Position numbers and translations under genes: made by a program
Part shown: positions 3,475 to 55,046 of the stretch, piece by piece
How the letters are laid out: every line of letters starts with the position of its first letter
Numbering within the stretch: the stretch's first letter is position 1
The notes under the pieces: model-generated
Told to the model about the DNA's origin: nothing
What the model saw: the letters and a program-made list of their open reading frames with translations, nothing else
The model's database searches: none
Origin: Kingdonia uniflora
Lineage: Eukaryota; Streptophyta; Magnoliopsida; Ranunculales; Circaeasteraceae
NCBI GenBank assembly: GCA_014058105.1
Contig: JACGCM010000440.1
Coordinates: forward strand, 124,001-188,000
Reading direction: 5' to 3'
Length of the DNA: 64,000 nt

Positions 3475-4000
3475 TGTAATGGCCTATTTCTATAAGATCG
3501 AAGAGGCTTGGAAATAGCTCTTACACCAATGTATCAGTGACAAAAATCTGATAAAAAGCAAGAAATGACACAGGTGATTTAGCGTGGAAAACCTTTGAAT
3601 AGGTAAAAACACCACGACCTCGAGTTGAGGGTTTTTGTAATAGTAATTTTTATTGCTTGAGGCTGATATCTTATTACAAGTGATCTCTTGACTTAGAAAT
3701 GCTTAATCTTGTGAATGAGAAGTTTGAAGTTTTTTTAGAATCTTTGAAAATGTAGTTTTCTTGGTGATTTCTCGTGTATTTTTCTGGTTCTTGTATCTTT
3801 TGAAACTATTTCTTTAAATAGGCCTTCTCCGTAGTTCTTCATCGTGCTGAAGCACGTTCTCCGAACAATGTGGCTAGTGGCAGTTGACTGAGTAACTGTT
3901 AAGTTTGTGAGAGACAGGTAGCTTTAACTAGTTCATGTTTTTCTGTTTGAGCAAGTGGAGTAGGTGGCAATATCAGCGTTACAAATACATACCCAGAATG
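3475..4000 (-). repeat. Element A 5' LTR, truncated at its outer end
   Basis: Read on the minus strand this ends in GGCCATTACA, the LTR end seen in elements D and E, next to the primer-binding site. It contains a TATA-like CCTATTTAAAG and the GATATCAGCCTCAAG block. Full LTRs of this group are about 590-620 bases. This copy lacks its outer 60-100 bases and stops near 3990-4010, where sequence of the antisense gene of element C begins. Its detail (GATATCAGCC, CACGCTAAATCACCT) is closer to the C LTR at 24936-25522 than to the D or E LTRs. Confidence 0.75.
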
Positions 4001-7000
4001 ACACACAGTCATGCAAGGTATCCCTATCAAGCTCAAGCCTTTTTACTTCCTTCACAAAGTAGGCAATAATAGCCATTAGCTCCTGTGGGCGCGATATTTC
4101 TAGAATAGACGTATTTCAATCGAGCATAACTACCTTAAAAACACGTTTTTGTTACCTCTGGCGACTTTCTTTCAAGTGTTTGTATCTATCGTCTTTCCAC
4201 GCCATGCGTTTTGTTGCTCGCGTCATCACCACATTATGCTGCGTTATTGTTTCTACTGCTTTATTTAGCTCAGCCTTGTTCACCATCCTCAGGTTCTCCA
4301 ATTGAGCACGAATTTCTGCCAACTTCCAGTCATCCCCATCACGTCCCCCAACATGAGCCTTCTTCAACAACTCATACTTCCTCTTAATCTCCCCCTCTAA
4401 CTCTAGTTCTCTACGAAGAACAATATCTAATTTATGTTGGCTCTCCCTTAAACGTTCATTTCCTCTCTGAACGTGGGCCTGAACATGAGCTACATCCGCC
4501 TCCAGCTCTTTAATTTCAACTGATGAGTCAGCCATGTCCCCTTTAACGCTAAAGACCCCGGCAATATCTTTTCTCTTCTTCGACCACTTCCCATCCTCGG
4601 CCTTCCTGACACACAAATTGGCTATAGCCAAATCTGCCTTCAACTTGGCCACCCGCTCATTCAATTCATCACACTGTTTTTGAACCGTCCAAAAATCAAT
4701 TTCTTTAGCAGGAAAGGCATCACTCAATTGGTCAGGCACACTTTCGGAACGGGCCAGGTCAGCTTGAACTTTTTCAAGCTCGTTGTCTTTCCTAGTCATT
4801 TTACTCTTCATTTTCTCAAGAACACTTTTGGAACTCACCAAATAAGCTCGAACCTGCTCAACCTCGTTTGTTTTCCGGGTCATTTGACCCTTCAAACTGA
4901 CCACAAAGTCCCGTAACTCTTTTTCTGCCACTTTTAGCGACTTGATACGGTACTGAGCAACATCCGCCTCTTTACCTTTCCCCATCAGCAAATCTACCCT
5001 GCCTTTTAACTTTGACATCTCAGTCTACGCCTCCGCAAGCTCCCTTCGCGCATTTTCTATCTCAGCATCTTTACCTTTGACCTTCTGGGTCAGGTCATCA
5101 ACTATCGATGTCACCTTAGCGAACTGGAGCTGTAGTTTGACATATCAATCCTCCTAAACTTCAGATGACTATCTAATGTTATCAAACTTTGCCACAAACT
5201 CATGATTGCATTAAAGCGTCCGTTGTTCACTCAAGCGCGCAATCTCTAATTTGACCTATATCACAGATATAATATATCAAGCTCGATTCAATAAAATTTC
5301 ACAAATGCAATCAAACATAATACAGATGAATTTACAGACTTCTAACAAATTTCTATTTTCTAACATGCTATTATTATGAGATTGCTTCTTAACTTAAGGT
5401 CAAAGTATGGTCTCAATTCGTTGGCAACAATATCTAAATCCATTTTCAAGGCACACATTTTCTATGTTCTAATTATCTAATTTGCTAACACATTAGTGAT
5501 CTATGCTAATCTTCTAATTTTACTTTGTAGCTCTAAAGTAATGCAGCATACAAGTCAAATATTTCTTGCTCTTTTCTAACCTGTAGCTCCGATTGCGAAG
5601 TCAGCAGGGACGCTGAGGCATTTTTCTCCTTAGCTAGCTCTTTCTCTAATTCTTCATTTCAGAGGCACATGTCTATACGTTCCTACAAGTCAATATTTAC
5701 AAACATCCCTTAGATTATTCAAATTTATCCTATAAAATAATATTCAATACAAATACAGTTTCCACCCCACACAAAAAACACATAAAAAAACTATAATAAC
5801 TTAACTTTACCTCCTCATTATCTTCTCTCCCCGCAATTCTCTAGGTCAGTTCTGGGAGAGACCGAATCCAACCCTGTTACCACACCTCCATCAGTAGGGA
5901 CCTCCTCTTCCTCTTTATCCTTTTCAATGTATGCACCTGCCATAATGGCTTTGAGGTCAGCAACTGTGTACCCCACTACGTTGAGTTAGCACCCAAGTCT
6001 ATCATGATAAGTTGTAACATCATCTACATTCTTCTGTGCCTCCTCAGTGAGCTCGCTTATCAACAGCTTCTGCGATGCCTTCGCAGTAACCAAACGTTCC
6101 CTCTCAAGAGCCAAATCAGACTCCAGTCGAGCTACCTTCTTCTCGAGCTCGGTTCTCCCATTCTCGAGCTCAGTTCTTCTTTCCCCAAGTCTGAGGCAGA
6201 TTCCCTTCAACAGGTGACCAGCCTACAACAGGACAACACATTTTTAGCTAAAAACCAAGTACAAAGGTCAATTTAGCACAGTCATCAACTTACCATCCTG
6301 CTCAACTCTGACTGGGCAGAGGTAGCTAGCTCCTCCGTGCCTCTTCGAGCTGCCAACCTTAACAGGTTCTCCATAACCCACATCTTGTCTACCTCAGCAG
6401 GTCGGCTCTCCACGACTTTCGCCCCTATTAGAGGAGTAGGAAGATCAACCCTCCTCATTTTCATACTCCCCTCGACCTCACCACTAACCATGGTACTGGA
6501 GGCCGAGCAACCCTTTAAAGTTTTCTTCTTGAGGTACTTTAGAGCTAACTTGCTCGAAGTTATCCCCATAAAAATATCCTATAACGACATTTTTGAAGCC
6601 CTAGGCAACACCAGACTTACCTTCCCGTCCGCTCCTCTTTTCTTGCTTGCTTCCGCTCCTGTCATCTGTCTCTTGGCCTGAGACTTTTACACTTTCTCTA
6701 ATCTATTGTTCACTCTCTTGTTTCTGTTGATGCCGAGCTCTTTCAGAATTGTCTCGAGCTCAACACCTTCCCGAGCTACAGTATCCAGCAGTGATTCTTT
6801 TCTTGTCGCCTTAAACTGAGGACCTCCAATATGACACAACAAATTGTTAAACCGCATAACTACCTTATACTACAATAATTCGATATTATACATTATTACT
6901 TACTTTTCTTCAAAGTTCTATATACAAGTTTCATGGGTTCCTCGTCCATTCTCTGCAGACAGTCCCCTTTTACCCATATCACATTCTCATTCCACACACA

Positions 7001-7219
7001 ACTTGTTGAATTCATATCATAGAAAAGAGGTCGAGATGAGCTCGAACATAAATATGCACCCCAAGTTGCAGCATAATATTTCATGGCATAGTACTGCAAA
7101 ACATCCCAAGGATTTATTCTCCTCTCCACCTCATTCACCTCCCACAATCTATTTAGAGTCTTACAAACATTTATAACCTCCTACATGTTTCCATTCAATT
7201 GGGCAGGACAAGCACCTAT
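4000..7219 (-). pseudogene. Element C antisense gene, exons 6 to 2 (downstream part)
   Basis: Minus-strand spliced gene of the element 3' region, cut in two by element E; the upstream part continues at 21582-22762. Inferred exons: 6 (5255 to about 4000), 5 (5682-5581), 4 (6222-5811), 3 (6823-6294) and the 3' part of exon 2 (7219-6904). Introns 5256-5580, 5683-5810, 6223-6293 and 6824-6903 have GT..AG ends at the same places as in D and E. Exon 2 to 3 splicing joins the frames as KKS-PQFKATRKESLLDTV. Exon 6 keeps a 288-codon open frame (5018-4152) rich in K, E, L and heptads, a long coiled coil. The protein family resembles PF04195. No known cell function. Confidence 0.7.
7215..7219. repeat. 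Target site duplication of element E, left copy
   Basis: CCTAT stands immediately before the TG of the 5' LTR and is repeated exactly after the CA of the 3' LTR at 21582-21586. A 5-bp duplication is the normal footprint of Ty3/gypsy integrase. Confidence 0.9.
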
Positions 7220-7988
7220 TGTAGGGACTTATCCCTCGATCTCATTCAAAATTGAGCTCACCCAGGTCGAATTATCTCCATCTCAGGCTCACGCATTTGT
7301 AACACTCCAATCAACATTCCAGCCAGCCCCACGAACTGCTCAAGAACGTGGACCGAGCTAAACCCATAAAACATTACCCAGTCAAAGATACCTGTCTCCC
7401 ACAAACTCATTAGTTATTCAGTCAACTGCCACTAACTACATTATTCGGAAAATGTGCTCTAGCACGATGAAAAGCTGTGGGGAAAGCCTATATAAAGAAA
7501 AAGTTTCATAAGAGACAGGGACCAGAAAAATTGCACAAATTTCTTATTTACGAGATTCAAAGCATTTCTATATTTATAAATCACTTGTAATAAAGATATC
7601 CGCCTCAAACAATAAATATACTTTCACAAAAATCATCCATACGAGGTCGTGGTTTTTACCTATTCAGAGATTTTCCACGCTAAAAATACTTGTTTCCATT
7701 TCTTACTTTCTATTAGAGTATTGTTACAGGTTCATTGGTGTGATAGCAAATTCCTAACCATTTCGAGCTTACTGAATTTGGCCAATAATAAAGATATCCG
7801 CCTCAAGAAATAAATATACTTTCACAAAAATCCTCCATACGAGGTCGTGGTTTTTACCTATTCAGAGGTTTTCCACACCAGAAATACTTGTTTCTATTTC
7901 TTACTTTCCATTAGAGTATTTGTTACAGGTTTATTGGTGTGATAGCGAATTCCTAACCATTTCGGGCTTACAGAATTTGGTCATTACA
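7220..7988 (+). repeat. Element E 5' LTR with internal tandem duplication
   Basis: Begins TGTAGGGACTTATCC and ends TTGGTCATTACA. A TATA box, CCTATATAAAG, lies at about 7487-7497. It is 769 bases long against 569 for the 3' LTR. The extra 200 bases are a direct repeat of the segment from AATAAAGATATCCGCC (about 7591) to GAATTTGGCCA (about 7785), which starts again at about 7788. The 5' and 3' copies otherwise differ mostly by C/T and G/A changes. Confidence 0.92.
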
Positions 7989-13839: not shown

Positions 13840-14510
13840 ATTATACTATCTTACAATCGATCTTATCCGAGTTAGATCAAGGATATCACTTGATTTGGCT
13901 TCCTCTACTAAATCTCTGCGATTGCAGCAAGTATAACAACTTGTTTCATATCAAAGACTCTACCAAACAAAAGATAGGTTGAAGATGATACTAGCCTTCA
14001 CCTACTTCAACTTGTTTGGGTCATTTATAACTGATGGATCAAGGATATCACTTGGTTTGGCTAACTCTACTAAATCTCAGTGATTATAGCAAGTGTAGCA
14101 ACTTGTTTCATATCAAAGACTCTGCCAATCAAAAGATAGGTCGAAGGTGATACTAGCCTTCACCTACTTCAACTTGTTCGAGTCATTTAAACAGTTGGAT
14201 CAAGGATATCACTTGGTTTGGCTGACTCTACTAAATCTCTGCGATTGTAGCAAGTGTAGAAACTTATTTCATATCAAAGACTCTACCAGGCATAAGACAA
14301 GACAAAGGTAATACTAGCCTTCATCTCTTTCAATATGTTTGCGACATTTCTATAGTTTAAATCAAGTTTCAAATTGGCTTAACTCAACCCATTTCTGAAC
14401 GAATGTAAAAAATTATTTTATATTAAAGACCCCACCAAACACAAGATAAGGCAAAGGTCATACTAGCTTTGATCTATTTCAATGTGTCTGCAACAAATAC
14501 AATTTATTTA
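13840..14510 (+). repeat. Element E 161-bp tandem repeats between integrase and antisense gene
   Basis: Four diverged copies in direct order. The marker ATCAAGGATATCACTTG starts at about 13876, 14038 and 14199, with a decayed fourth copy at 14361, so the unit is 161-162 bases. Each unit also has CTCTACTAAATCTCTGCG and AACTTGTTTCATATCAAAG. Element D has the same array with the same period. Arrays at this place are known from Ogre/Tat elements and can give rise to satellite DNA. Confidence 0.9.
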
Positions 14511-14519
14511 TTTAGGTCA

Positions 14520-15911
14520 AATTCATATTACAAGGAATTCTTTTCTACTGATGGAGTGTCAGCAGTGCTTCCCCCTTCATCAAGAGGTCAAACTTTCAGT
14601 TCACAGATTACAGCAGCTCTACCCGTCTCTATCAACTCAGCAGTTCGAGGACCCAAATAGGTTTCCATGACGCCCAGACAGTTCCCTCGATCTATTTCAA
14701 CTCCACAAATACATCCTTTATCTGACAATCTTTTGAATAAGGTATATCTCGTTCTGACTCAAGTCTTTTTACTTCTTTTACAAAATATGCAACAATCGCC
14801 TTTAGCAGGTCTAAGCGTGACGCATCAGGTATTACCATTATTGTAAATTTTTCTCTCACCTTCTCGAGGCGTGACTCTAACCTAGCATACGCATCCTTCT
14901 GTTCAATCATTTCCGCGTCGACCTTTACATAATATATCACATTTTTTCCAACTTTTTTATGTACTTAGCAGATTCAGCTAGGTTCATGGCTTCTAAGTCT
15001 ACTACACGAGCACGAAGTTTCTCGCTTTCAACGTTTAACTCTTCCCTGGCTGAAGTATCTTTTCATAATTCCTCTTTCCTCTTCATCAGCGATTCCTTTG
15101 CTTTAATTTACCCTTCTAAAACTTTCTCCCTGATAAGAGTAGCATCAAACTTCTGCTGGCATTCCCTCAAGTTTGCATTTCCTCTCTGAACATGCCTCTT
15201 AATACGAGACACATTACTATCTAGCTCTCTAATTTGACCTGAGAGACTAACTACATCCCCTCGAACTAGAGAAGCCTTAACATCAGTTCTACCTCCCCCA
15301 GAATTTTTTCTAGCCTCCGCTTTCTTAGCACGCGCGATAGCCGGCGCCAGCTCAGACTTAAGTCGGGCAACCCTCCCATTTAAATCGTTACAATTTCGTT
15401 GCATTTCTCGGAACTCCATGTCCTTGGTGGGTAGGGCTATTTGCAAGTGTTCAGCTGCAGCCTCCGAAGTTGATAGATTTTCTCGAACTACCATCAGCTC
15501 ATTGTCTTTTTCAATAATTTTTTGTCTCATTCACTCCAGCCCGTTCCTACACTTCTGGAGATTAGATCGAGATCGTTCCTTCAATCTGTCTAACGCCTGA
15601 ATACGGCATTGAGCCATGTCAGCCTGCTTACCCTTAACCGTTAATGCGTCAACCTGACTTTGAAGCTTCTCGGCGACTTCTGTTACCTCCGCTAGCTCTT
15701 TTAGCCCCTTACCTATTTCGACATTTTTTTCTTCGGTCTGAAGAGTGAGGTCGGAAGCGGCCTGGGTTACCTCCACAAGTTTAAAATGCGCCTTTACATA
15801 TTGATCTTCTCTATTCTCGTTCGCCTCCCTTATCCTATCAAACTTCTCTGCAAATTCCCGATTACACTTGAGTACGTTGTCCTTACGAGAGCGAGATGAA
15901 TCTAATTCGAC
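14520..15911 (-). pseudogene. Element E antisense gene, exon 6 (coiled-coil part)
   Basis: Last exon of the antisense gene. It begins after an AG at 15912-15913 and reads VELDSSRSRKDNVLKCNREF, then through 15108-15530 and 14692-14940. Composition is very rich in E, K, R, L with heptad spacing, so a long coiled coil is expected. In-frame stops after NGLE (about 15531) and after VLEG (about 15108) break it. The same exon in C keeps 288 open codons and in D is also broken. Confidence 0.65.
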
Positions 15912-16218
15912 CTGGGGAATATAACAATTTTTAGTACAGTTCGATTCAGGAAAACTTTTGAATATATACATACTTCATTTCTAAAGATTCTATACGATAT
16001 CTAACTCTTCATCTTTACTACTTTAGTGCGTTATTAGATAAATGCTTCGTGAGGTCTACTACGGAGTTAAAGGTACATACTTTCGATACGCTTCTTTATA
16101 TAAATAGTGTTGGATTTTTACCATGCACTATACTGAGGTTATCTGCATTTATATCCTACTTACGTGATAACTTAACATTGGTATAATATGCAAGTCAAAA
16201 GACCTGTTACATTCTAAC

Positions 16219-17494
16219 CTGCTGCTCCGCTTGAGCAGACAACAAAGCTGTAGAGATCTCTCTTTCCCTGGCAATCCTAGACTCTAGACCTTTTACTATG
16301 AGACTCATTTTTCTAAGTGCCTTCAAGAGGTTTATAAAACAAGTCAACCTATAGAAGTTTCTTCCCCACACACAATTCAACAATTTACAAATATTTATAC
16401 AAATGCACGTTTCTACCCTACCTTCTCACTATTACCCTCTGGGAGTTCGCCATCATCCCCTTGGTTGCCGAGCACCATCTGACGAGAGACACTATCCAGA
16501 ACGTCAACGATCCCCACCACTTCTGCTTCCTCCACATCTTCCTACTCAACATAGGTGTCTGCCTTAATGGCATCTACCTCCTCCTCAGAATAGCCCTTCA
16601 GCATCATGTGACACCCCAGTCTGTCACGCTCCTCGACCATCTCGTCTAGATTGGCTCTCATCTTCACCTGTAACTGACCAATCGCCACGGCATGAGAAGC
16701 CTTTAGCTGCCTAACTTCCTTCAGAGCATCAGTCCTCGCTCGAGTTAGTTCCTATTCCAGCTTGATCTTCGCCTTCTTCAGCTCAGATTTTTCTTCCTTA
16801 ATGTTGAGCCAAATCCCCTTAATAAGACGAGCAACCTGCAAAAAATTAAATTGATCTCAGCGATTAGCTCGAAGTGCATTAAACAACTCTTTCCTATAAT
16901 ATAAACTTACCATCTTGTTCAGGTCTTCCTCTCAATGGAGAATCGCAAACCTAGCCCTTTCCTTGACCTCTTTGAGGTCGTCCACCGCAGAAGATCGCCC
17001 CTCAATGGCCTTATCTCCTGAATCCCCCGAGGGTTTGACTCTCCTCCATTTTTCTTTTGCGACCTCATCACTTTCAGTGGTACTAGAGGCCGACAAAGCC
17101 TTTAACATCCATTTTTTCAGATATTTTTGAGCTATTTTGCTCGACGTATCGGGATTTGGTTGAGCCAAACTTCCTATTCCAGAAGTCTTGGACAAGTTGG
17201 TTCGAACCTCCCCACCACTCACTTGCCTCTTCCCTTCGTCAACACCCACCATCGACTTGGTCGACTGAGCTTTTTGGACATTTTTCGACCTGCTATCAAT
17301 CCTCTTCTTTCTACTCAGGCCGAGTCCCTTCAACATAAATTCAAGCTCAATCTCCTCCTCCGCAACTTCATCCAATATAGACTCTTTCCTCTCCACTTTA
17401 GACTTCACACCTACAATGAACAACATTTTTATTATCAACTACAGTTATCAGTGACATATAGCAATAATTCTATCTATGCATGTCTATACTTACT
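16219..17494 (-). pseudogene. Element E antisense gene, exons 5, 4, 3
   Basis: Exon 3 17410-16911, exon 4 16835-16422, exon 5 16320-16219, with introns 17411-17493, 16836-16910, 16321-16421 and 15912-16218, all GT..AG and matched in C and D. Exon 3 holds an open frame (SKVERKESILDEVAEEEIEL, then a basic, serine-rich linker with SRKKR that could be a nuclear signal). Exon 4 includes the acidic MLKGYSEEEVDAIKADTYVE. Only a few stops occur. The protein lies downstream of the globular domain and upstream of the coiled coil. Confidence 0.65.
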
Positions 17495-18298
17495 TTGTTT
17501 TATAGTTCTAAACCGAAGTTCCAAAGGTTCTTCGTCATCTCTTTGAAGACAATTACCCTTCACCCATATGACGTTGTCATTCCAGGATCGACCTGCGAAA
17601 TTCAGATCGAAGAAGCGACTCCGAGTTGCGCTCGCAAAGAAATATGACCCTTCACTGGCCTTATAATTCTTCACCCCATAAAAATGCAAAATTTCATCAG
17701 GGGTTATCCTCCTCACTTTTCCCCCCTTCTCCCATTTTTCATTTAGATGATCACACACGGTTATTACCTCCCACATATTCCCATTCAATTGAACAGGATA
17801 TGCCTCGATTGCATTCATAATCCCCTTCGCCAAATTAGTGAGGGGAAGACTCAACCCATACTCTAATTAAGATAGGTAACACAAAAAACCCTATGAGAGG
17901 TCACTCCGAACATCCCCATCGAAGTATTTTAAAGAGATCAATTTATCTCTACCCCTATCTCTTTTTTCCACTTCCAAATCAGCCAACAGATAAAAGTACT
18001 CTTCCCCCACCGCTACCGTACAACCCCAAAACTGCCTACAGATATATTCTACACAATTACCCCACTTCCCTCCTACGGCCGCCTTAGCTTAACAAAACCT
18101 TTTAAAGGCATCAGAACCAGGAGGATAAGATATCAATTGGCCAGGAAAACCCGAGAATTATTCCAATCCTACTTCCCCCTCACTATTAGACTCATTCGTC
18201 CGACCAGAGGTCGATATCTCATTAACAGACGAACTACCCATCTCAACAACAATTTCTACAGGCACGTTTTCGATTATAAAATGCCTCTCACGCTCGAC
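17494..18298 (-). pseudogene. Element E antisense gene, exon 2 (PF04195-like domain)
   Basis: Exon 2 starts after an AG at 18299-18300 and ends at a GTAAGT at 17493-17492. Its 3' half is an open frame of 126 codons (17854-17474 as read without splicing). It shows the pattern of the 'putative gypsy type transposon' family: LSLPLTNLAKGIMNAIEAYP, PVQLNGNMWEVI, GSYFFASATRSRFFDLNF, SWNDNVIWVKGNC. The 5' half has several stops. The family assignment is from the order of conserved W, G, F and Y residues as I remember the family, not from a search. Confidence 0.6.
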
Positions 18299-18328
18299 CT
18301 ACATACAGGTTAAGGTATCTATCATTCT

Positions 18329-18352
18329 TATATATATATATATATATATATA
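18329..18352. repeat. (TA)n microsatellite inside intron 1 of the E antisense gene
   Basis: A run of about 11 TA units within the 108-bp intron 18299-18406. The matching introns in C and D lack it. Confidence 0.9.
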
Positions 18353-18406
18353 TCTTTAACACATTCAGTATATACGGCAACATATATTGCATATATCTCT
18401 ACTAAC

Positions 18407-18835
18407 CTTCAGTATATGAATGAAAATCTGCAGTAGCACCAAGCCTTTCCCTCACGATGCTGTTGTATAGCCACCTATGAGATTCAGTGACTTTTACCCT
18501 CTTTAACAGTTGATCCTCTTCGGATAACTCCTTATCAAATCCCCTAATTTTTTGTCTCTCTCTCTCTGTGTGCTCTCTAAATTTTTAAAAGTTGAAAAAT
18601 GTTTGATTGGAGATGAAGAAGCACTATTTATCTTTTCTCTCTCAAGCGGCTGGCATTTATTGTGCCTCGCACGACCCGTCCTCGATTTCGGAACCGATGA
18701 ATCATTTCCATTCTCGATGTCAGACGTCTTGTACCTTTTCAATAAAACTACATTTCTATCATTACAACTCCCCTCATTTTTTAGCATATTTTTCTCTCCT
18801 ATTTCTATATCTTTTCCTGACCTTCCCATACTCAT
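18407..18835 (-). pseudogene. Element E antisense gene, exon 1
   Basis: First exon, opening with MSMGRSGKDIEIGEKNM at 18835. The same start is seen in D (MSVEKSDKDMETGDKN, 37280) and C (MSMGGSERNF, 22762). It ends at a GTTAGT splice site after a stretch reading RWLYNSIVRERLGATADFHS. The 5' frame (to 18503) and the 3' frame are out of register in all three elements. Either the real start lies in the second frame and the first is an upstream ORF, or a small intron is missed. Confidence 0.5.
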
Positions 18836-19157
18836 GATGACTCACTCTATACGATATCAGATTTTTACCTCCTTACATACAAAGCCAAACCAGAAGATTC
18901 TAGATTTTCAACTTTTTGTTTCCCTGTCTTTGTTTATCATACTTATAGTAATTGACGTCGTTTTCTAAACTATGCAAATTTTCAAAATTATTCAAATTAT
19001 TTGCTAAAACAGTCTCAAAATAGATTTGCACCTATAGAGGATCCGATTGACTTAGATAGTTTTTGTTACATTCAACAAAAATGTATTATTCATAATCAAA
19101 GCTTTATGCAACATCTATCGCAGCCCTAGTAAAACTGGACGATGTCATCCAATCACA

Positions 19158-19451
19158 TTATTCATCAGTTCTCAAATCTTCGAATTCGATCTCAACTTCA
19201 GCAATCAAACCAACCAACCTTTTTCGTTCTATCGCATCCCTAACCAATTCATGAAAGCACACCTCATAGAAATAACGAGCATACTTCAGTTCTCTGCTCC
19301 TTACATCTAATCCTTCAAGCTGACATTTCCTCACGGGTAGCTCAGCATCATAGCCAAACGAACCAAAAATCCTTTCCCGTACTTTAGCAATTTTTATGGC
19401 CAATCGTCCTTCCGCGGCATGACGAATCCCCTGAGATCGAGTCCGTACCAT
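19158..19451 (-). CDS. Element E small antisense ORF b
   Basis: An open frame of 97 codons starting MVRTRSQGIRHAAEGR and ending FEDLRTDE. A TATA box (TATAAATACG on the minus strand, about 19493-19502) lies some 45 bases upstream of the start codon. Homologous frames occur in C (start about 23365) and D (start about 37898), both broken by stops but alignable: RLAI.IA.VRE.IFG..YD..LP. The protein is basic at its start and acidic at its end. I do not recognise a known family. The MV.TR start resembles that of ORF a. Confidence 0.55.
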   Translation of the reverse strand: MVRTRSQGIRHAAEGRLAIKIAKVRERIFGSFGYDAELPVRKCQLEGLDVRSRELKYARYFYEVCFHELVRDAIERKRLVGLIAEVEIEFEDLRTDE

Positions 19452-20389
19452 CCAATTCCTTACTCAATATATTTTTTACAGATCATCTTACCCGTATTTA
19501 TACGTTTCTCACAATACTTTCCCTCAAAAACGTGATTTTTACCTTGTATCTCGTAACGGAATAAATTATTTGAACTTATCCCCTCACCAATACTTACATG
19601 ATTTATCATACTCGACCTCATGTTACCAAAATTGAACCTCTATCGACCGTTAGAAGCTTGAATTTCCACCATTACATATTTCCTATAATTTTTCTCCCTC
19701 ACTTGTTTAAAACACAAATCATACTTACATTACAACGACATTGTCAGTACGTACTCATATCAGTTTGAGCATCACAACAATAATGTTCTCATTTCTTATA
19801 AACTTTTATTCATTTTTCACACCTTGCACAATTCAGTTCGATTATGAATTTTTTTTTCTATATACAGATTATTAAATGACAAATTTTATTCATGTCGAAA
19901 ACATTACATACGATTTACAGATAACAAGTTTTTCAGTACATCGATCTCAGGAATAAAACAAAAATGTTATAGGTCCAGCACCAAACTCTAGGTACTTTTC
20001 AGATAATAAGTATTTCCCTATTTGTTCAAAGTCACAGGTCATTCAGGCACGCAGAGGCATCAACTTCTCTAGTTCTTCTTGCTTTAGTGATCTTTCACCC
20101 AAATGCAAAGTGGGCATTGGAGCCAACAAAGAGATTCCCTCGCATAAGTTTGGTTGAAGTCTAGTCGAAGTTTAAATGGAAACTATACAAGCAGTAAACT
20201 CAGTGCTAGAATAAAACTCTCGAACTAAGAGTCTTCTGAGCGCCAAAACGTGATGGAAATACAGAAACAGACTCCCACTAGTTGTCTCCCTCTTCCACTA
20301 CCATCACCCTCTCCTCTAAAACCGCCACCTCCGAAGAGTTGGTAAAGATTAAGAGGGCCCAACCTTAGAATCCATGGTGACACAAGAAA

Positions 20390-20692
20390 TCAGCATATCT
20401 GCCCTGCAGATACACCTATCCCTACATATGCAGCCCTAACCCTGTAATTTGCAAGAGTACGGAGACAGGCCCACCGGTCCTTGCCTGTCAAGACGGCGAC
20501 ATGAAACCTCCACTTATAGTAAAATTCCTCCACAGCTTCAACCGCTTCCTCTTTCGACATACCTTGATAAATCGGATGAATAGGAGCGGGTATCGACATC
20601 TCCAAGGATTGGTCACCAAAGTATTTCAACTTTAACCTCTGCGTTTCAGTCACTATCCTCTCTTCAAGGACTATCCTCCGAGTCTTCACCAT
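20390..20692 (-). CDS. Element E small antisense ORF a
   Basis: An open frame of 100 codons starting MVKTRRIVLEERI, with LKLKYFGDQSLEMSIP, YQGMSKEEAVEAVEEFYYKW and RFHVAVLTGKDRWACLRTLA. A TATA box (TATAAATAGT, 20770-20761 on the minus strand) lies about 70 bases upstream. The copy in C (24605-24267, 112 codons) is also fully open and alignable along its length. The copy in D is broken by a shift near 39115. No known family recognised. Function unknown; the position next to the 3' LTR puts its promoter in antisense to the element. Confidence 0.6.
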   Translation of the reverse strand: MVKTRRIVLEERIVTETQRLKLKYFGDQSLEMSIPAPIHPIYQGMSKEEAVEAVEEFYYKWRFHVAVLTGKDRWACLRTLANYRVRAAYVGIGVSAGQIC

Positions 20693-20760
20693 TTTAAAAA
20701 ATGTTCAAGTTTCAGAATAAGTTACGCACGCAGGCACTGTTTCAAAAATTTGCTACAGGT

Positions 20761-21012: not shown

Positions 21013-21581
21013 TGTAGGGACTTATCCCTCAATCTCATTCAAAATTGAGCTCACCCAGGTTAAATTATCTCTATCTCAGGCTCACACATTTGTAACACTC
21101 TAATCAATATTCCAGCCAGCCCTACGAACTACTCAAGAAAGTGGACCGAGCTAAACCTATAAAACATTACCCAGTCAAAGACACCTATCTCTCACAAGCT
21201 CGTCAGTTATTCAGTCAATCGCCACTAACCACATTATTCGAAAAATGTCCTCTAGTACGATGAAAAGCTGTGGGGAAAGCCTATACAAAAAAAAGTTCCA
21301 TAAGAGACAGGGACCAAAAAAATTACACAAACTTCTTATTTGCGAGATTCAAAGCATTTATATATTTATAAATCACTTGTAACAAAGATATCTGCCTCAA
21401 ACAATAAAGATACTTTCACAAAAATCCTTCATACGAGGTCGTGGTTTTTACCTATTAAGAGATTTTCTACGCTAAAAATACATGTTTCCATTTCTTACTT
21501 TCCATTAGAGTATTATTACAGGTTCATTGGTGTGATAGCAAATTCCTAACCTTTTCGAGCTTACGGAATTTGGCCATTACA
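21013..21581 (+). repeat. Element E 3' LTR
   Basis: 569 bases from TGTAGGGACTTATCC to TGGCCATTACA. It matches the 5' LTR apart from the 200-base duplication there. The TATA box of the 5' LTR is decayed here (CCTATACAAAA). Confidence 0.93.
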
Positions 21582-21586
21582 CCTAT
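21582..21586. repeat. Target site duplication of element E, right copy
   Basis: CCTAT, identical to 7215-7219. Confidence 0.9.
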
Positions 21587-22762
21587 GGTATTTAGTATAC
21601 CTTTAGCAAGGTTGCTCAAAGGCAATCTTAGCCCATCTTCTAATTGGGACAGATAGCACAGAAACCCCTTGTACAAATCATTTTGAACGTTCTCATCAAA
21701 CTACTCTAGAGATATCGATTCTTTTACCTTCCTTTTCTTTCTCTCCTATTCTAAGTCAGGCAAAAAAAAAAAATATTTTTCCCCACTCTCCACAATATAT
21801 CCCCTAAACAACCTCCCGACATGTTTTACAACATTACCCCATTTTCTACCTACAATAACTTTGGATTTACATAACTTTTTGAATACATAAGAGTTCGGAG
21901 GATAAAAGCACAAACTACCAGGGAAATTTGGAAATTACAATTCATCCTCCCCCTTAGAGTCTATATTTACAGATCCTACATTCTCGGACACACCCGTACA
22001 ACCAGAAGTTGATGTCCCCACCTCAGGTAAAACCTCTATTACAGATGTAGGCTAAAGGATGAGGATTTATTTCTAAAACAGATTCTCCTCATGCCCCAAC
22101 CTACATACAGGTCTAGGTATTCTGCCAATTCACTCAATCATTATCTTTTGTTTGTATACATCCATACATGCATATACTATATCTCTATTATACATATGAA
22201 AACCATATCTTCATACATACATATCAAATAATCTTTTCAAACATTTACTATAAATAGCATAATTTTCTAAATTTTGAAAACCAACGCATAATTTCAAAAC
22301 TTAACACACATTAAAAACTCAATCACTAACCTTCAACGTCTGAGTATGAATCAGATGTAGCACCCAATCCTTTTTTCACCACGACACAATACAACCAACG
22401 TCTAGATTCTACTTCCACGGACTTCTCGTCCCTTATACAATGATCACCTTCGTTCATTCTCTCACGCGATTCTCTACAAGTGTTATCTTTTCTCTTACGC
22501 TGCTCTTTTGTTTTTTAGAACTTGATAAACGTTTGAATGAGAAAGAACTATTATTTATAATTTCTTTCTTAAACTGCTGGCAGTTATTGGGACTCGAACA
22601 AGCCATCATCGGTTTTAGAACCGAGGTGTCCCTTCCACAATTAATGTCAGATGTTTCATACCTTTTCGGTGAAATCACCTTCCTATCATTACCCCACCTT
22701 TTATATTTTAATATATTTTTATCTCACCCAACAAAATTTCTCTCAGACCCTCCCATACTCAT
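21582..22762 (-). pseudogene. Element C antisense gene, exon 1 and upstream part of exon 2
   Basis: Continuation of the C antisense gene across element E. Exon 1 22762-22331 starts MSMGGSERNF and has an early TGA; its later part reads KRYETSDINCGRD as in E (KRYKTSDIENGND). Intron 22101-22330 has GT..AG at the E and D positions. Exon 2 runs 22100 to 21582 and resumes at 7219 after the E insertion. Confidence 0.6.
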
Positions 22763-22999
22763 GATAACTTTATACTCACACGCAATCAAACTTTTCTACC
22801 CTTACTCAAAAGATAGAAAAATTAGAGCTCATATGTTTTTTTGATTTCTGTTGTCCTACTTATAAAAATACTAACGTCATTTTCAATATAACAACATTTT
22901 AAATTCAAATATTTTATTCACAACAGTTCCCAACCACATTTGCAGTAAAACAGGAGAAACATTCTACCTCTATTCTAATTATAGTTATTCGACCTAATT

Positions 23000-23365
23000 T
23001 AGTTCGCACCCTCAAATATAATAACACATAAAGCATCCCACATGCCCTGGAGAGCCACACCTGATTAGTTTGCCCCCAACAATCTTCACATCTTCATCAG
23101 TAATTTCTTTCATAATAATTTGCCTCACAACCATTTTTCGATATGTGGGCTGTAAAATCACTTCACAGAATATCTCCGAGTAAAAATGACGCCCAATCTC
23201 AAGTTCCCTCGCCCTCGAATCCAAGCATTCGAACTAGAATTCAAATTCAGGCAAGTCAGAATCATAATCTAAATACCCAAAGATCTTTTCCCTCACTTCT
23301 GCAATATTTATCGCTAGTCGTCACTATGCAGCATGACGAGCTCTTTCAGAACGAGTCCTCACCAT
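23000..23365 (-). pseudogene. Element C small antisense ORF b, broken
   Basis: Starts MVRTRSERARHAA and continues RRLAINIAEVREKIFGYLDY; stops follow, and the distal part is open at 23224-23012. A TATA box (TATAAATATAA, minus) lies near 23400-23410. Homologous to the intact frame at 19158-19451. Confidence 0.5.
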
Positions 23366-24266
23366 TTTGTCATTTCTTCCTCCTCTGTACATCACATTTC
23401 CATTATATTTATACACCTCTTCAAAATAATTTCAAATCACCCATATTTCACATATAATATATTCTATTTTTCCATAACTGGAAACCCTAAGATCGTGCAG
23501 CAGAGTTATTTGAACTTATCTTTCCAAATCAACATCATCATAATCCATCCATCCCCGTCTTGAACTAACGTTCACCATCTCCCCCCTCCCAGTAAAACGT
23601 TTCTAACATACATTCTTACCTCGATATTTCAATTCCTGTACACTCTAGTCTCTATAAGGACTTATCTTCTAGCACGAGTCTTACGATCTAACCAGTTCGA
23701 TACACAATTTTAAATTTATCAATATTTTTGCCTTCACGTTTATTTTTAATAGTTTGACTAATCAATTTCCATTTTTTAGTTCGCCTTCTAAAAATTACAT
23801 TTTTTTTACTCTTCAACATCAATATATTTCTTTCAGCTCAATTTAACAAAAAAATAGCTAATTAGTTATATTAACACAATTTTCACAAATAATCTTTTTC
23901 ATTAGCTCGAATATCAATTATATAATACTTTACAGATAACAAGTCTTCCCGATATTATTAAAGATCGTCTTGCAGGTTACATATCAGTTTTTAACACTGT
24001 ATTGAATTAGAGAATCTTCTAAAGTAAAGTAGGAACTGGAAATCACTGAGCTTGATCCCTCCTTCACATCATTTACTTCCACAAGAAACTGAGGAAGCAA
24101 AAGTGTCAGTGCTTGAACCAACCCTCAACGCGATAACCTTCTTCACGACCAGAGAAGATGATTGTGCAGAAGAAAGACTTTCAATCTCCGTCTTCCTCCT
24201 CCACCACCATCGTCTCCCCCTCCATAACCCCCACCAACTAAGAGTTGGTAGAGATTAAAGGGAGTC

Positions 24267-24605
24267 CTACCTTAGAACCCAGTCCCTCGCAGGATACTGG
24301 CAATAATGCCTCGCATGTACGCCAACCCCTACATTTGTCTCCTTAACCTTGTCCTCCGCCAAGATACGAAGGCACCTCCGATGCTGCTCCTCAGACAGAA
24401 CTACGTAATGAAATCTCCACATGTGGTAAAAGTCATTTTCAATTTTAGCCGCTTCATCTTCCGACATCCCATGGTAAGTTGATGGTACGGTCATAGGTGT
24501 GGGCATCTCCAACGTTTGGTCCCTAAAGTACCGCACCTTCAACCTCTGCATTTCAGCAGACACACTCTCTTTATAGACCAATCGCCAGGTCTTCACCATT
24601 ATCAA
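24267..24605 (-). CDS. Element C small antisense ORF a
   Basis: A fully open frame of 112 codons, MIMVKTWRLVYKESVSAEMQ at its start, then LKVRYFRDQTLEMPTPM and YHGMSEDEAAKIENDFYHMW. It aligns with the E copy over its whole length at clearly reduced identity, yet has no stop or shift, in the oldest-looking element of the nest. A TATA box lies about 65 bases upstream. Function unknown. Confidence 0.55.
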   Translation of the reverse strand: MIMVKTWRLVYKESVSAEMQRLKVRYFRDQTLEMPTPMTVPSTYHGMSEDEAAKIENDFYHMWRFHYVVLSEEQHRRCLRILAEDKVKETNVGVGVHARHYCQYPARDWVLR

Positions 24606-24935
24606 TCAGATTACACAAAGAATATTACCACAACATAGTACTTTGACAGAAGCTCCAGTATAGGTACTATTTATATCAAACTAATATTTAATATGCAGGT
24701 ACGTTTCCAAAGCAGTCATCATTCAAAGTAAAACCAATCTGGGAACCCCAAACGTCAAGTACATCAATCTTTTCCAGCCTTATAAATGCAGATACAGTCT
24801 TCAATGAATAAATACAGAGTACCCAACCATTCAAAGTACCCATCAATCATCAAATCTTTTCAACTTCCAACACCAACAGTCTTCAGATTCTTTCTCAACC
24901 AAAGCTACTCGTGTCTTCAGTTGTGAGGGGGCGAT

Positions 24936-25522
24936 TGTAGAGAACTATCCCTCGACCTAGTCTAAATTTAAACTACCTTAAATCAAACTCACACATTTCA
25001 CACGTGATATGCACAATCAGCATTGTCACCCAGACCATGAACTAATAAAGAACATGGTTCGAGTACTACATCAAAACATGAACAAGCAAAAAATACTTGT
25101 CCCCCACGAACTAAATAGTTACTCATTCAACCACCACTTACCTCATTATTCGGAGAACATGCTTCTACACGATAACGAGTTGTGGGTAAGGTCTATATAA
25201 AGAAATATTTTAAGAGGAGATAAGAACCAGAAAAACCAGATTTTCTAGACTTTAACAAAAGAATTTCTTGATTCAAAATACCACAAAACTTCTTAATGTA
25301 AGATCAAGAATTTCTAGTTTGAGAGATCACTTGAAATAAGATATCAGCCTCAAGAATAAAAGTTACAGTTACTAAACCCTCAACTTGAATTCGTGGTTTT
25401 TTACCTATTCAAAAGTTTTCCACGCTAAATCACCTCTGTCATTTTTTGTATTACTTTAATTTCTGTCACATGTACATTTGTTGTAAAGATCTAATTTCGA
25501 GTTATGGAATTAGGAAATTGCA
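24936..25522 (+). repeat. Element C 3' LTR
   Basis: Follows a GAGGGGGCGAT polypurine tract, starts TGTAGAGAACTATCC and ends TAGGAAATTGCA. It has a TATA box CTATATAAAG at about 25193. It belongs to the same family as D and E but is clearly more diverged, and shares GATATCAGCCTCAAG and CACGCTAAATCACCT with the LTR of A. Confidence 0.85.
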
Positions 25523-25649
25523 TGAATTCTATTGAAAGCATGACATGACTCCTTTCTATAGATCTGTACATCTCGGTCGTGATTACAGTTTGACTTTCGA
25601 CCCACAGTTATTTTTCATTGATCAAAAATTGAATAAACACCTTGACACC
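25523..25649 (+). repeat. 127-base spacer between C and D, repeated after D
   Basis: TGAATTCTATTGAAAGCATG to CTTGACACC. The same sequence with scattered differences follows the D 3' LTR at 40116-40243, where it runs on into unique DNA. It is not LTR or element-internal sequence. Confidence 0.9.
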
Positions 25650-26270
25650 TGTAGGGACCTATCCCTCGATCTCACCTAAAGTCGAGCTGTCGCCAGTTCG
25701 AATTACCTCAATTTCAGACTCACGCATTTTTAACATAACTTCCCTAGTCAATAGTCCAACCTACCCCACGAATTGGTTAAGAACGTAGGCCGAACTTAAA
25801 CCGGAAAGCCTTATCCAGTCAAATACACCTGTCTCTTATGAATTTGTTAGTTACTCAGTTAACTGCCACTAACCACATTATTTGGAAAACGTACTCCAAC
25901 ATGATGAAGAGCTGCAGATAAGGCCTATATAAAGGAAAATTTCCAGAATAGACAAGGACAAGAAAAATTACATAATAGATCATCAAGAGACTACTTATTC
26001 TTGATTTTCAGCAACATTCATACTTCTTAGTTACAAAGTTCAAGCATTTCTATATCTAGAGATAACTTGCAATAAGATATCCACCTCAAGCAATAAATAT
26101 ACTTTTACAAAAATCCTCCACTCGATGTTCTGGTTTTTTACCTATTTAAAGGTTTTCAATGCTAAAAACATCTGTGTCATTCCTTACTTTATATTAGAAT
26201 ATTGCTGCAGGTTTATTGGAATGATAGCGAAATCCAAGCCATTTCGAGCTTACAGAATTTGGCAATTACA
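25650..26270 (+). repeat. Element D 5' LTR
   Basis: 621 bases, TGTAGGGACCTATCC to TTGGCAATTACA, TATA box CCTATATAAAG at about 25924-25934. Confidence 0.92.
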
Positions 26271-26292
26271 TTTGGCGCCGTCTGTGAGAAAG
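26271..26292 (+). other. Element D primer-binding site
   Basis: TTTGGCGCCGTCTGTGAG follows the LTR directly and is the best-kept site of the window. TGGCGCCGT fits the end of tRNA-Asp; the remaining bases do not. Confidence 0.85.
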
Positions 26293-32149: not shown

Positions 32150-32830
32150 GCATATATAATACTAGCTTTCAATCGATCTTATACCAGTTAAATTAAGGAT
32201 AACACTTGGTTTGGCTGACTCTACTAAATCTTTGCGATTGAAACAAATGTAGAAACTTGTTTTATATCAAAGACTCTACCAAACATGAGATAAAGCAAAG
32301 GTAATACTAACCTTCATCTACTTCAACTTGTTTGGGACATTATACCAGTTAAATCAAGGATATTACTTGGTTTGGCTAACTCTACAAAATCTCTGAGATT
32401 GAAACAAATGTAGAAACTTGTTTCATATCAACAGCTCTAACTGGCATAAGATAAGGCAAATATAATACTAGCATTCATCTCTTTCAATATGTCTATAACA
32501 TTACAACAGTTAAATCAAGATTTACTTGGTTTGGCTAACTCTACTAAATCTCTGCGATTAAAACAAATGTAGAAACTTGTTTCATATCAACGACTCTGAC
32601 ATGCATAAGATAAGACAAAGGTAATACTAGCCTTCATCTCTTTCAATATGTCTACAACATTACTACAGTTAAATCAAGATTCACTTGGTTTGGCTAACTC
32701 AACCTATCTCTGCGATTATAATAAATATAAAAATTTGTTTTATATCAAAGACCCCACCAGACATAAGATAAGGCAAATGTTATACTAGCTTTCATCTATT
32801 TCAATATGTCTGCGACATATATTATTTATT
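32150..32830 (+). repeat. Element D 161-bp tandem repeats
   Basis: Copies of a 159-161 base unit with the marker A(T/C)TAAG or ATCAAGGATA starting at about 32192, 32353, 32514 and 32673. Each copy has ACTTGGTTTGGCTAACTC and GTAGAAACTTGTTTCATATC. The period is the same as in E, so the array existed before the two elements split. Confidence 0.9.
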
Positions 32831-35800: not shown

Positions 35801-37280
35801 CTTTGGGCCTGCCATGCACAATATTTGTTATTATCACCAAAAGATTATCAGTACATACATACCAATATTATATTATATGCATTATTATACTTACTTTGTT
35901 TTACAGTTCTAAACAGAAGATCCAAAGGTTCTTCATCATTTCTCTAAAAATAATTACCCTTCACCCATATTACGTTGTCATTTCAGGCTCGACCTGTTGA
36001 ATTAAGATTGAAGAAGTGACGCCGAGTTGCACTTGCACAGAAATATGCCCCACCATTGGCGTGATAATTTTTTACCCCATAAAAATGCAATACGTCCTCA
36101 GGGGATATCCTCCTCACTTTTCCCTTATTCTCTCATTTTTCATTCAGATAAATGCAAACAGTTATTACCTCCCACATGTTCTCATTCAATTGAACATGAC
36201 ATGCTCCAATCATATTCATAATCCCCTTCGCCAAATTGGTAAGGGGAAGACTCAACCCGTACTATAATTGAGACAGGTAACCAAGAAACCCTCTGAAAGG
36301 TCACTCTGAACACTTTCATCAAAATATTATAACGAAATCGATTCATCTATACCTCTATCTCGTTTTTCCTCCTCCAAGTCGGCCAACAAATAAAAATTTT
36401 CTTCCCCCATCGCTATAGTACACCCTCTAAACATCCTACCAACGTATTCTACGCTGTTATCCCATTTCCCTCCTACGGTAGCCTTGGCTTTGAAAAAAAA
36501 AATTAAACGCATCTGAACCAAGGGGATATACCACCAATTTTCCAGAGAAACTTGGAAATTGCTCCAATCCTACTTCAACCTCACTATCAGACTCTACCGT
36601 CCGACTAGAGGTCAAAACCTCGTTAATAGGCAAACTATCCATCTCAACTACAACTTTACAGGCAAAGTTTGATCCTACACAAATACCTCTCACGTTTGAC
36701 CTACATATAGGTTCAGGTATCTATCATTATTTCATGCACATCGATCATTCATTTGCAACATATCTTTCAAATATTCTGTCTATATGTCAAATTTCATAGG
36801 TTGCTATAAATAGTGATTTTTTAGAGATTTTCTTAAAATAGATTACGATTTGCAAAAAATACAGCACACGTCTCTACTAACCTTCTGTGTCAGAATGAGA
36901 ATCCACAGTAGCGCTAAGTCCTTCCCTCACAACGCTGCTATATATCCACCTACGTGATTCTGCGCCTGCAACTCTCTTCGACTGCTGATCACCCTCAGAT
37001 AAATCCTTACCAAATCCTCTGTAATTTTTTCGTGCTTCTCAGTCTGTGATCTCCAAATTTTTAGAAGTTGAAAAATGTTTGAATGATGAAGACGAAGCAC
37101 TATTTATTCTTTCTCTCTCTAACGGTTGGCAGTTATTGCGTCTCGTACGACCACATTATCCATGTTAGACGTCTTGTACCTTTTTAATAAAACCACATTT
37201 CCATCATTACCCATACCCTCATATTTTAATATATTTTTATCTCCTGTTTCCATATCTTTATCTGACTTTTCCACACTCAT
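32860..37280 (-). pseudogene. Element D antisense gene, six exons
   Basis: Inferred exons: 1 37280-36882, 2 36700-35895, 3 35808-35306, 4 35225-34797, 5 34680-34578, 6 34212 to about 32860. All five introns have GT..AG ends at the places used in C and E. Exon 1 starts MSVEKSDKDMETGDKN. Exon 2 holds the PF04195-like domain in decayed form. Splicing exon 2 to 3 gives KQS-PKSRVERKDSLLDKVAE in frame. Exons 4 to 6 give acidic and coiled-coil segments (HLMFKGYSKDEVEAIKADTY; VELDSVRSCEDEALQYNREF). Stops and shifts are present. Function unknown. Confidence 0.68.
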
Positions 37281-37579: not shown

Positions 37580-37898
37580 AGTGACCACATCTGATCAAAT
37601 CTACTCCCTCGATCATCTCATCTTCAAATTCGATTTCCACCTCAGCAATCAATCCAATCATCTTTTCTCGATCTGCAGGATCCCACACCAATTCACGAAA
37701 GCATACCTTATAAAAATATCGGGTATACTCAAGTTCCCTACCCCTTACATCCAGTCATTCGAGCTAACGCTCCCTCACTGGTAACTAAGCATCATAACCA
37801 AACAATCCAAAAATCTTCTTCCGCACTTCAGCGATATTTATGGCCAATCGTCTTTCAGTGGCATAACGACTTCTCCGAGATTGAGTCCGCATCATCAT
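37580..37898 (-). pseudogene. Element D small antisense ORF b, broken
   Basis: Reads MMMRTQSRRSRYATERRLAI then NIAEVRKKIFGLFGYDA and a stop, continuing to IGLIAEVEIEFED. A TATA box (TATAAATAAG, minus) lies near 37935-37945. Homologous to 19158-19451. Confidence 0.5.
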
Positions 37899-38849: not shown

Positions 38850-39153
38850 GGTGATACAAGAAATTAGCATATTCATATCCCTGCATCTAACCCCCCAACT
38901 TTGTACTCCTCCAAGGTACGAAGACAAGCCCAATGTTCCTCGTCTGTCAAGACGACGACATGAAACCTCCACTTACAATAAAATTCTTCCTCGGCTTCAA
39001 CCGCTTCGTCTTCCGACATCCCTTGATAAGTCGGATGAACAAGAGCGAGTATCGACATCTCCAAGGATTGGTCACCAAAATATTTTAACTTCAACCTCTG
39101 TATATTTTAGACGCAATCCTCTCTCCAAGGACCATCCTCCGAGTCTTCACCAT
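38850..39153 (-). pseudogene. Element D small antisense ORF a, frameshifted
   Basis: Starts MVKTRRMVLGERIASK at 39153, shifts frame near 39110, and continues as KLKYFGDQSLEMSILAL, YQGMSEDEAVEAEEEFYCKW (39094-38873). TATA box TATAAATAGT about 70 bases upstream. Confidence 0.55.
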
Positions 39154-39492: not shown

Positions 39493-40115
39493 TGTAAGGA
39501 CCTATTCCTCGATCTCACCTAAAGTCGAGTTGTCGCCAGTTCAAATCACCTCTATTTCAGACTCACGCATTTTTAAAATAACTTCCCCAGTCAACATTCC
39601 AACCTACCCCATAAACTAGTTAAGAACGTGGGCCGAACTTAAACCAAAAAGCCTTATCCAGTCAAAGACACTTGTCTCTCATGAATTCGTCAGTTACTCA
39701 GTCAACCACCACTAACCACATTATTCAGAAAACGTGCTCCAGTACGATGAAGAGCTGCGGAGAAGACCTATATAAAAGAAAAGTTTCAGAAGAGACAAGG
39801 ACCAGAAAAATTACACAAGAGATCATCAAGAAACTACTTATTCTAAATTTTCAGCAATATTCAAACTTCTTAGTTACAAGGTTCAAACATTTATATATCT
39901 AGAGATCACTTATAATAAGATATCCGCCTCAAGCAATAAAAATACTTTTACACAAATCCTCCACTCGAAGTCATGGTTTTTTTTACCTATTTAGAGGTTT
40001 TCCAAGCTAAAAACATCTGTGTCATTTCTTACTTTCTATTAGAATGTTATTGCAGGTTCATTTGTGTGATAGCGAATTCCAAGCCATTTCGAGCTTACGG
40101 AATTTGGCCATTACA
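39493..40115 (+). repeat. Element D 3' LTR
   Basis: 623 bases after a GCGAGGGGGCAAT polypurine tract, TGTAAGGACCTATTCC to TTGGCCATTACA. A close match to the D 5' LTR. Confidence 0.92.
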
Positions 40116-40420
40116 TGAATTCTATTGGAAGCATGACATGACTCCTTTCTACAAATCTATATATCTCGGTTGTGATTGCAGTTTGACTTTCGACCCACAG
40201 TTGTTTTTCATTGATACAAAATTGAATAAGCACCTTGACACCCTCAAAGCCATCAAACGTACGGTTCGGTTTTACATCTGGGGTATAAACGTCGAAGTTT
40301 GGGTAAATGACATCTTGAATGATAGTCACGGAGATTTCTTTGTCTTGGACTTGGAAGATAAGAAGAGAGTTTGATGAATTTTGTTTGTTTGTGCTTTAGT
40401 GTATTTATAGATGAGTTATG
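40116..40420 (-). other. Possible 5' end of a truncated minus-strand gene
   Basis: On the minus strand a TATA box (CTATAAATACAC, about 40397-40408) is followed by a leader-like stretch. After it a 72-codon open frame (NFDVYTPDVKPNRTFDGF, FCINEKQLWVESQTA) ends exactly at the D LTR. No clear ATG opens it, and the same DNA reads open on the plus strand too. It could be the cut-off start of a gene interrupted by the retrotransposons, or chance. Confidence 0.25.

Positions 40421-41508: not shown

Positions 41509-55046
<13,538 letters not shown>

Follow-up and report, generated by a model that had tools for sequence, protein, structure and literature searches.

A probable spliced, multi-intron antisense gene in Retand-like LTR retrotransposons of Kingdonia uniflora

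Protein-coding genes on the strand opposite to the genomic RNA are already known from several retroelements. In the Retand lineage of plant long terminal repeat (LTR) retrotransposons, antisense TRP28 open reading frames (ORFs) were reported in 97% of the recent clusters and a regulatory role was suggested for them (Vicient 2025, PMC11963269); in the main text of this survey the word 'intron' is absent and the string 'splic' is found twice. Gene23 of the maize element Grande is antisense, possesses its own upstream promoter and encodes a nuclear protein (Vicient and Casacuberta 2020, PMC7264820). The same paper urges that spliced antisense transcripts be examined, and 'intron' occurs 0 times in the portion of its text covered here. 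The HBZ gene of human T-cell leukaemia virus type 1 (HTLV-1) and the APH genes of HTLV-2/3/4 are antisense genes whose transcripts are spliced and whose products are mostly nuclear regulators (PMC10186651), and Ogre elements contain one sense intron between GAG-PROT and the reverse transcriptase (RT), which is spliced from a subset of the transcripts (PMC6317226). Here, a stretch of 64,000 nt of the Kingdonia uniflora genome (GenBank assembly GCA_014058105.1, contig JACGCM010000440.1, positions 124,001 to 188,000 of the forward strand; referred to as the window, to which all positions relate) was analyzed, in which three copies of a Retand-like Ty3/gypsy element, designated E, D and C, have a minus-strand coding gene between integrase and 3′ LTR in common. 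Judged from its sequence, this is likely a real spliced, protein-coding antisense gene with at least five common exons (exons 2-6) and one or more additional 5′-exons.

Like the Retand TRP28 ORFs, the Kingdonia gene is an antisense protein gene located between pol and the 3′ LTR with tandem repeats nearby, and for Retand Smc and similar extra domains were described in several clusters together with a proposed DNA-related role (PMC11963269). Unlike the ORFs counted in the Retand survey, the Kingdonia ORFs appear to be exons of a single gene, and in E and D about 8 kb lie between pol and 3′ LTR in comparison to the surveyed maximum of about 6.56 kb (PMC11963269). The description of Grande gene23 in PMC7264820 contains no intron structure, and the gene is likened to the Kingdonia gene by description alone. 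HBZ and APH are driven from the 3′ LTR, whereas in the Kingdonia gene the introns number at least four and the conserved TATA boxes of E, D and C sit outside the LTR; the likeness lies in the antisense position within a retroelement and was drawn from descriptions, not from sequence (PMC10186651). Ogre provides another case of an intron in a Tat-clade element, but in the Kingdonia element there are several and they are on the opposite strand (PMC6317226). While this kind of antisense gene is known, its multi-intron structure appears to be new within the open-licence literature, in which no description of introns in antisense ORFs of plant LTR elements was found.

The exon-intron structure was determined on the minus strand of all three copies. 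In E, exon 1 as given by the initial annotation (18407..18835, with the ATG at 18835) is followed by exon 2 (17494..18298), which contains a TRP28-like stretch and is in frame with exon 1 only from 18255, exon 3 (16911..17410) with a basic SRKKR-type stretch, exon 4 (16422..16835), exon 5 (16219..16320) and exon 6 (14528..15911), which shows a frame change near 14940 and ends with the stop codon at 14528. They are separated by intron 1 (18299..18406, or 18256-18406 with an alternative in-frame acceptor), intron 2 (17411..17493), intron 3 (16836..16910), intron 4 (16321..16421) and intron 5 (15912..16218). In D, exon 1 (36882..37280) has a 31-nt gap relative to E, exon 2 covers 35895..36700, and introns 2-5 are located at 35809-35894, 35226-35305, 34681-34796 and 34213-34577. 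The initial annotation had claimed five introns at the same places in E, C and D, with GT and AG intact throughout and the join of exons 2 and 3 in frame. All 15 of these introns indeed start with GT and end with AG, and the join is of phase 1 in E, D and C according to exon lengths and frames. The common positions were borne out for introns 2-5 (GT and AG in 12/12), whereas the acceptor proposed for intron 1 is out of frame with exon 1. All 16 splice-site bases of introns 2-5 are invariant in the three copies (P about 3e-7, with the intron-interior columns identical in all three copies, 196/498 or 0.39, as background). Exons 2-6 of E can be read in a single frame over 913 codons, including 11 stops, up to a frameshift. 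No match at the Rfam gathering threshold was obtained within 14000-21600.

For the analysis of codon-level constraint, the ratio of nonsynonymous to synonymous substitution rates (dN/dS) was calculated between the copies. In the antisense frame it amounted to 0.34 (0.28-0.42) for E and D (exons 2-6), 0.27 (0.17-0.37) for E and C (exons 3-6) and 0.30 (0.20-0.39) for D and C (exons 3, 4 and 6), the ratios with C being rough due to the fact that synonymous sites are close to saturation. Wrong frames of the same pairs gave 0.71-1.03, and introns 2-5 treated as coding gave 0.78-1.03 between E and D. For comparison, the in-frame value of pol (RT-RNase H) between E and D was 0.27. Among single exons of this pair, exon 2 gave 0.29, exon 4 gave 0.26 and the first part of exon 6 gave 0.30. 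Coding on the sense strand was considered and rejected: sense frames of exons 2, 4 and 6 gave 0.37-0.40, yet the lowest values, 0.26-0.30, were those of the antisense frame, which has few stops. The antisense frame is under purifying selection in the comparisons of E, D and C, and both conserved GT-AG introns and the frame constraint of a spliced protein-coding gene were found.

Further copies were retrieved with a 600-base query against the 1.0 Gb Kingdonia uniflora assembly, for which 40 places out of 4988 first-look candidates were scored. The 39 copies other than E are its best matches and mutually related, and thus no random sample. Introns 2-5 are physically present in 39/39 copies, with intron 3 shortened in one of them. 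With the coordinates of the initial annotation, intact donor-acceptor pairs were counted for all five introns in 15 of the 39 copies, for four in 15, for three in 8 and for two in 1. Splice dinucleotides were kept in 352/384 cases compared to 68.6% at 91 intron-interior GT/AG sites (P about 1e-4 by resampling, with intron 1 scored at the initially proposed acceptor). The dN/dS pooled over the 39 copies was 0.47 in frame, 0.66 and 0.73 off frame, and 0.64-0.73 in introns; control values below 1 are taken by us as a mutation bias that the method ignores. Indels in multiples of three made up 30/106 in exons and 6/93 in introns (Fisher p 7e-5, a value that is too small because indels are common to related copies). 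Through splice sites, dN/dS and these 39 copies, the observation of a multi-intron antisense gene kept across the diverged copies E, C and D was confirmed. That introns and open frames are merely chance features of a diverged repeat that have been over-read is hardly credible: single GT/AG pairs are common and the copies are decayed, but the frame-specific dN/dS, which rules out chance open frames, stands against it together with the three-way agreement of the introns and the control with intron-interior sites.

The annotated proteome of Kingdonia provided a further view of the same structure. Over three protein searches, at least 180 different protein models (P0001-P0180) matched, the listed records comprising 120 of the 178 matches of the first search and 55/55 and 46/46 of the others. 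Among the 120 listed, the joins were crossed exactly in 56 (exon 2-3), 66 (exon 3-4), 68 (exon 4-5) and 46 models (exon 5-6). After mapping of all 180 proteins to E, one place per join accounted for 67 of the 93 abutting pairs at exon 2-3 and for 44 of the 54 at exon 5-6. These models show that open frames with splice signals recur in many copies, and say nothing of RNA being made. Relatives outside Kingdonia were absent from the listed matches, which reflects a limit of word-sharing searches and is no proof of absence, and of 17 pattern matches in IMG/VR none was confirmed. Several matching proteins also bear host labels (NPH3, pentatricopeptide, kinase, beta-amylase), and such models result either from erroneous fusion or from exons that host genes have taken up. 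Caution is advised with the Kingdonia annotation, in which many 'hypothetical proteins' match the transposon gene.

The 5′-end of the gene is more complex. Exon 1 of the initial annotation looks coding, with its ATG kept in 33/37 copies and a dN/dS between E and D of 0.22 in the last and 0.58 in the first part. It ends in phase 1, and with the acceptor at 18299 of E a stop follows after three codons in both E and D. An in-frame AG, which gives an open frame, lies 43 nt (E), 47 nt (D) or 65 nt (C) further into exon 2, and 14 of the 36 annotated exon 1-2 joins among the Kingdonia proteins mapped on E are at about this position. The initially proposed acceptor is probably nevertheless real, of phase 0, and used by another first exon, because its AG is kept in 36/38 aligned copies and its distance to the exon 2 ATG is a multiple of three in 34/38. 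The antisense coding region, which had been thought to reach to 18835, comprises exons 1-6 up to there but runs on to 20692 in E with two further segments on the minus strand. Segment A (20387..20692; 101 codons, open) is preceded by TATAAATA at 20770 and segment B (19158..19451; 97 codons, open) by TATAAATA at 19502, while the TATA-like TATAAGTA of exon 1 is located at 18947. In D, segment A (38850..39153, minus strand) is frameshifted and has its TATA at 39227, and segment B (37585..37895, minus strand) contains stops and has its TATA at 37942. Directly downstream of segment A, at 20230-20386 of E, a glycine-rich coding-like stretch shows strong conservation among E, D and C. About 65-80 nt before the segment B TATA of E, GATAAGTTCAAAT was found, 13 bases that are identical in E, D and C and represent the longest identical run of the upstream-B alignment; it may be a control site.

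Constraint on segment B is clear in the pairs of E, D and C (dN/dS 0.26, 0.14 and 0.23), and segment A is the weaker coding case (E-D 0.46, E-C 0.41, D-C 0.69, with D frameshifted). The distance between TATA and ATG in E/D/C is 78/74/76 nt for A, 51/47/48 nt for B and 112/100/102 nt for exon 1, and the TATA match is present in 31/38, 32/36 and 34/38 aligned copies, respectively. Among the 8-mers of the respective regions, the TATA box ranks 1/129 in conservation for A and 7/330 for B. With nearly even chances, A and B could be separate small antisense genes with their own promoters and not 5′-exons of the spliced gene. TATA and ATG at conserved spacing in each segment and the dN/dS ranges (0.14-0.26 for B, 0.41-0.69 for A) fit this view, as do the joins in the annotated models, which are inconsistent in comparison to those of exons 2-6, both from A to B (in 4 proteins, where each of the three most frequent joins occurs once) and from B to exon 1 (8 proteins, the commonest join occurring in 3). 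However, both segments carry a donor-like GT in phase 0, as needed by the conserved exon 2 acceptor. It is kept in 31/37 copies in A, where other GTs have a mean of 0.64, and in 33/36 copies in B, where the mean of the others is 0.82, so that B is barely above background. Phase and conservation of these GTs would fit alternative first exons. A single gene of eight exons in the order A-B-1-6 was also considered and is weakened by the inconsistent A and B joins of the annotated models.

The predicted product was analyzed by profile searches and structure models. The basic SRKKR-type stretch of exon 3 is a possible nuclear signal, and an SRKKRV-like motif is present in 75 of the 180 Kingdonia proteins. 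The first structure model had a mean predicted local distance difference test score (pLDDT) of 50, and the second, of P0025, reached 60.8 with confident helices mainly in the later part (residues 300-358, 382-427, 435-492 and 498-569; block pLDDT mostly 73-89). These residues are encoded by the last part of exon 3 and by exons 4 and 6, whereas the exon 2 part was mostly modelled with low confidence. As for a coiled coil, the parts of exons 4 and 6 are predicted as long helices, in line with the coiled coil that the initial annotation had assigned to the protein. Beyond it, the C-terminus is common to E and several annotated proteins. A sequence search against PDB gave no significant match (best E 0.47).

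The gene is best read as a conserved accessory gene, antisense and spliced, whose product would be a coiled-coil protein and perhaps nuclear, and a number of observations weigh against this reading. The annotated joins are gene models and partly restate the same genomic signals. The in-frame acceptor of exon 2 is kept in just 23/38 aligned copies, the TATA-like box of exon 1 is unexceptional (rank 26/298 8-mers), and in segment A one wrong frame is as low between E and D (0.45) as the right frame (0.46). Between the same copies, exon 3 is under modest constraint (0.50) and exon 5 under none (1.29, 34 codons). The PF04195-like domain claimed by the initial annotation amounts to a resemblance below threshold: the exon 2 stretch scored 13.9 (E), 17.6 (D) and 14.2 bits (P0079), so that all three matching sequences, aligned with profile positions 2-50 or 5-50, are below the gathering score of 26.2, and no match was found in the C piece or in 9 other proteins tried. 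The frames are disturbed, as exon 5 of D and exon 4 of C contain indels and exons 1 and 6 of E are frameshifted. E and D are decayed copies, and each of the 39 further copies contains 5-24 stops per 910 codons. Finally, against the criterion of the initial annotation, which concerned dN/dS across young copies, the two closest pairs, with a synonymous rate (dS) under 0.1, gave a pooled dN/dS of 0.62, near the control values of 0.64-0.73. In sum, the initial interpretation was supported in part, namely for the gene, the coiled coil and the intron logic discussed below, and not for PF04195 and the closest-pair dN/dS.

The stops in 39/39 E-like copies and the near-neutral closest pairs would also be expected if the gene had been functional only in ancestral elements and were now a fossil in dead or non-autonomous copies with no present-day protein, and the LTR pairs, which differ by 7.6% in E and 11.7% in D, identify both as old insertions. 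This alternative is rather unlikely in our view, since the sample consists of the E-like group alone (40 scored of 4988 candidates) and matching annotated models reach 1194 aa, although the longest, P0064, bears an NPH3 label and models can skip broken parts. The near-neutral values of the closest pairs are read by us as dead copies drifting after insertion, with the constraint recording the time before it, because the deeper pairs give 0.27-0.34.

Self-BLAST revealed nested Retand-like Ty3/gypsy elements within the window, namely D, E, C and an element A (1-3951, minus strand). The LTRs of E, delimited by self-BLAST and flanks, are located at 7220..7787 and 21013..21581 (plus strand), the 5′ LTR being preceded by the target duplication CCTAT at 7215-7219 and the 3′ LTR being followed by CCTAT at 21582-21586, with a purine-rich tract immediately before it. 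A partial second copy of the last 200 bases of the E 5′ LTR is present at 7786-7989 with 92% identity (self-BLAST). Those of D are located at 25650..26271 and 39493..40116 (plus strand, self-BLAST). C is an older, truncated copy of a 3′ part, whose exon 2 was split by the insertion of E with CCTAT on both sides. Its left part (3952..7217, minus strand) holds the end of exon 2 and exons 3-6, the far end adjoining the LTR of element A, and its right part (21582..25649, minus strand) the start of exon 2, exon 1 and segments B and A, with ATGs at 22762 (exon 1), 23365 (segment B) and 24599 (segment A) and LTR-like sequence from about 25014. Tandem repeat arrays were found between pol and the antisense gene in both E (13870..14495, units of ~160 nt) and D (32179..32818). 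D ends ~1.4 kb upstream of a WW-domain ORF (41509-42774, plus strand), and a further ORF (53697-55043, plus strand) encodes a Gly/Arg-rich tail preceded by the end of a helicase C domain; these presumably are the first and the last coding exon of a gene for a WW-type DEAD-box RNA helicase.

The profile search of D showed the order gag, RT, RNase H, RVT_3 and integrase core, with RVT_3 (27.7 bits, cut-off 21.6) located between RT_RNaseH and rve and with rve (31.9 bits) slightly below its cut-off of 32.6. In E, RVT_3 was not found by the same search at an E-value of 0.01. Ogre and Retand have an RNase H-like (aRH) domain located after RNase H and before integrase (PMC6317226), and in D this position is taken by RVT_3. 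Coding sequence in antisense between pol and 3′ LTR is likewise a Retand feature present here, and so are the tandem repeats in E and D, which are common but not universal in Retand (about half in the 2025 survey, PMC11963269). The LTRs of about 570 nt (E) and 624 nt (D) are inside the surveyed Retand range of 315-1,194, whereas the 3′ LTR begins about 7.9 kb (E) and 8.1 kb (D) after the rve match ends, which is above the surveyed 2,933 to about 6,560 bp (PMC11963269). The term 'Retand-like' is an assignment by domain order and layout.

For the accessory gene, the following scheme is proposed. RNA polymerase II would probably transcribe it from internal TATA promoters situated in the stretch from the 3′ LTR to exon 2, and the antisense pre-mRNA would then be spliced; a stranded (dUTP) RNA sequencing set of 18 Kingdonia samples exists (PRJNA971146, PMC10298588). 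The product would combine a TRP28-like N-terminal part with long coiled-coil helices and with the basic stretch, which may be a nuclear signal, and could act in trans on the expression or chromatin of the element itself. The introns would outlast replication because only the sense RNA is copied, in which they are no introns, as the initial annotation had argued. This logic is supported by the retention of introns 2-5 in all 39 copies and by the exon 2 boundaries, of which 0 were joined and 48 unspliced in 48 partly overlapping records. Since antisense introns would be invisible in the copied sense RNA, an LTR element could stably carry a multi-intron gene in antisense orientation only. Alternatively, the antisense RNA and not a protein could matter, by pairing with the sense genomic RNA and feeding silencing by small interfering RNA or self-limitation. 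Such a role has been considered possible for the antisense ORFs that plant elements carry (PMC7264820), and the antisense unit would cover several kb of the sense RNA. On its own this explanation is improbable, as codon-level constraint and conserved splice sites would be left unexplained, but the RNA could act additionally to the protein.

Antisense ORFs of plant LTR elements have so far been counted as single ORFs. It can be suggested, tentatively and with somewhat less than even confidence, that over very many rounds of copying one lineage has maintained an antisense locus rich in introns, in which a common body of five exons is served by several TATA promoters and by A, B and exon 1 as alternative first exons, that the antisense strand offers a route to ordinary eukaryotic gene structure, and that the separate antisense ORFs of Retand may be exons of such genes. 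Should the ORFs belong to a spliced gene as its exons, most of the protein would escape surveys that go by ORF length. The spliced gene offers a clean account of intron retention in a retroelement, and, if it is true, its long coiled coil and conserved C-terminus become open to study.

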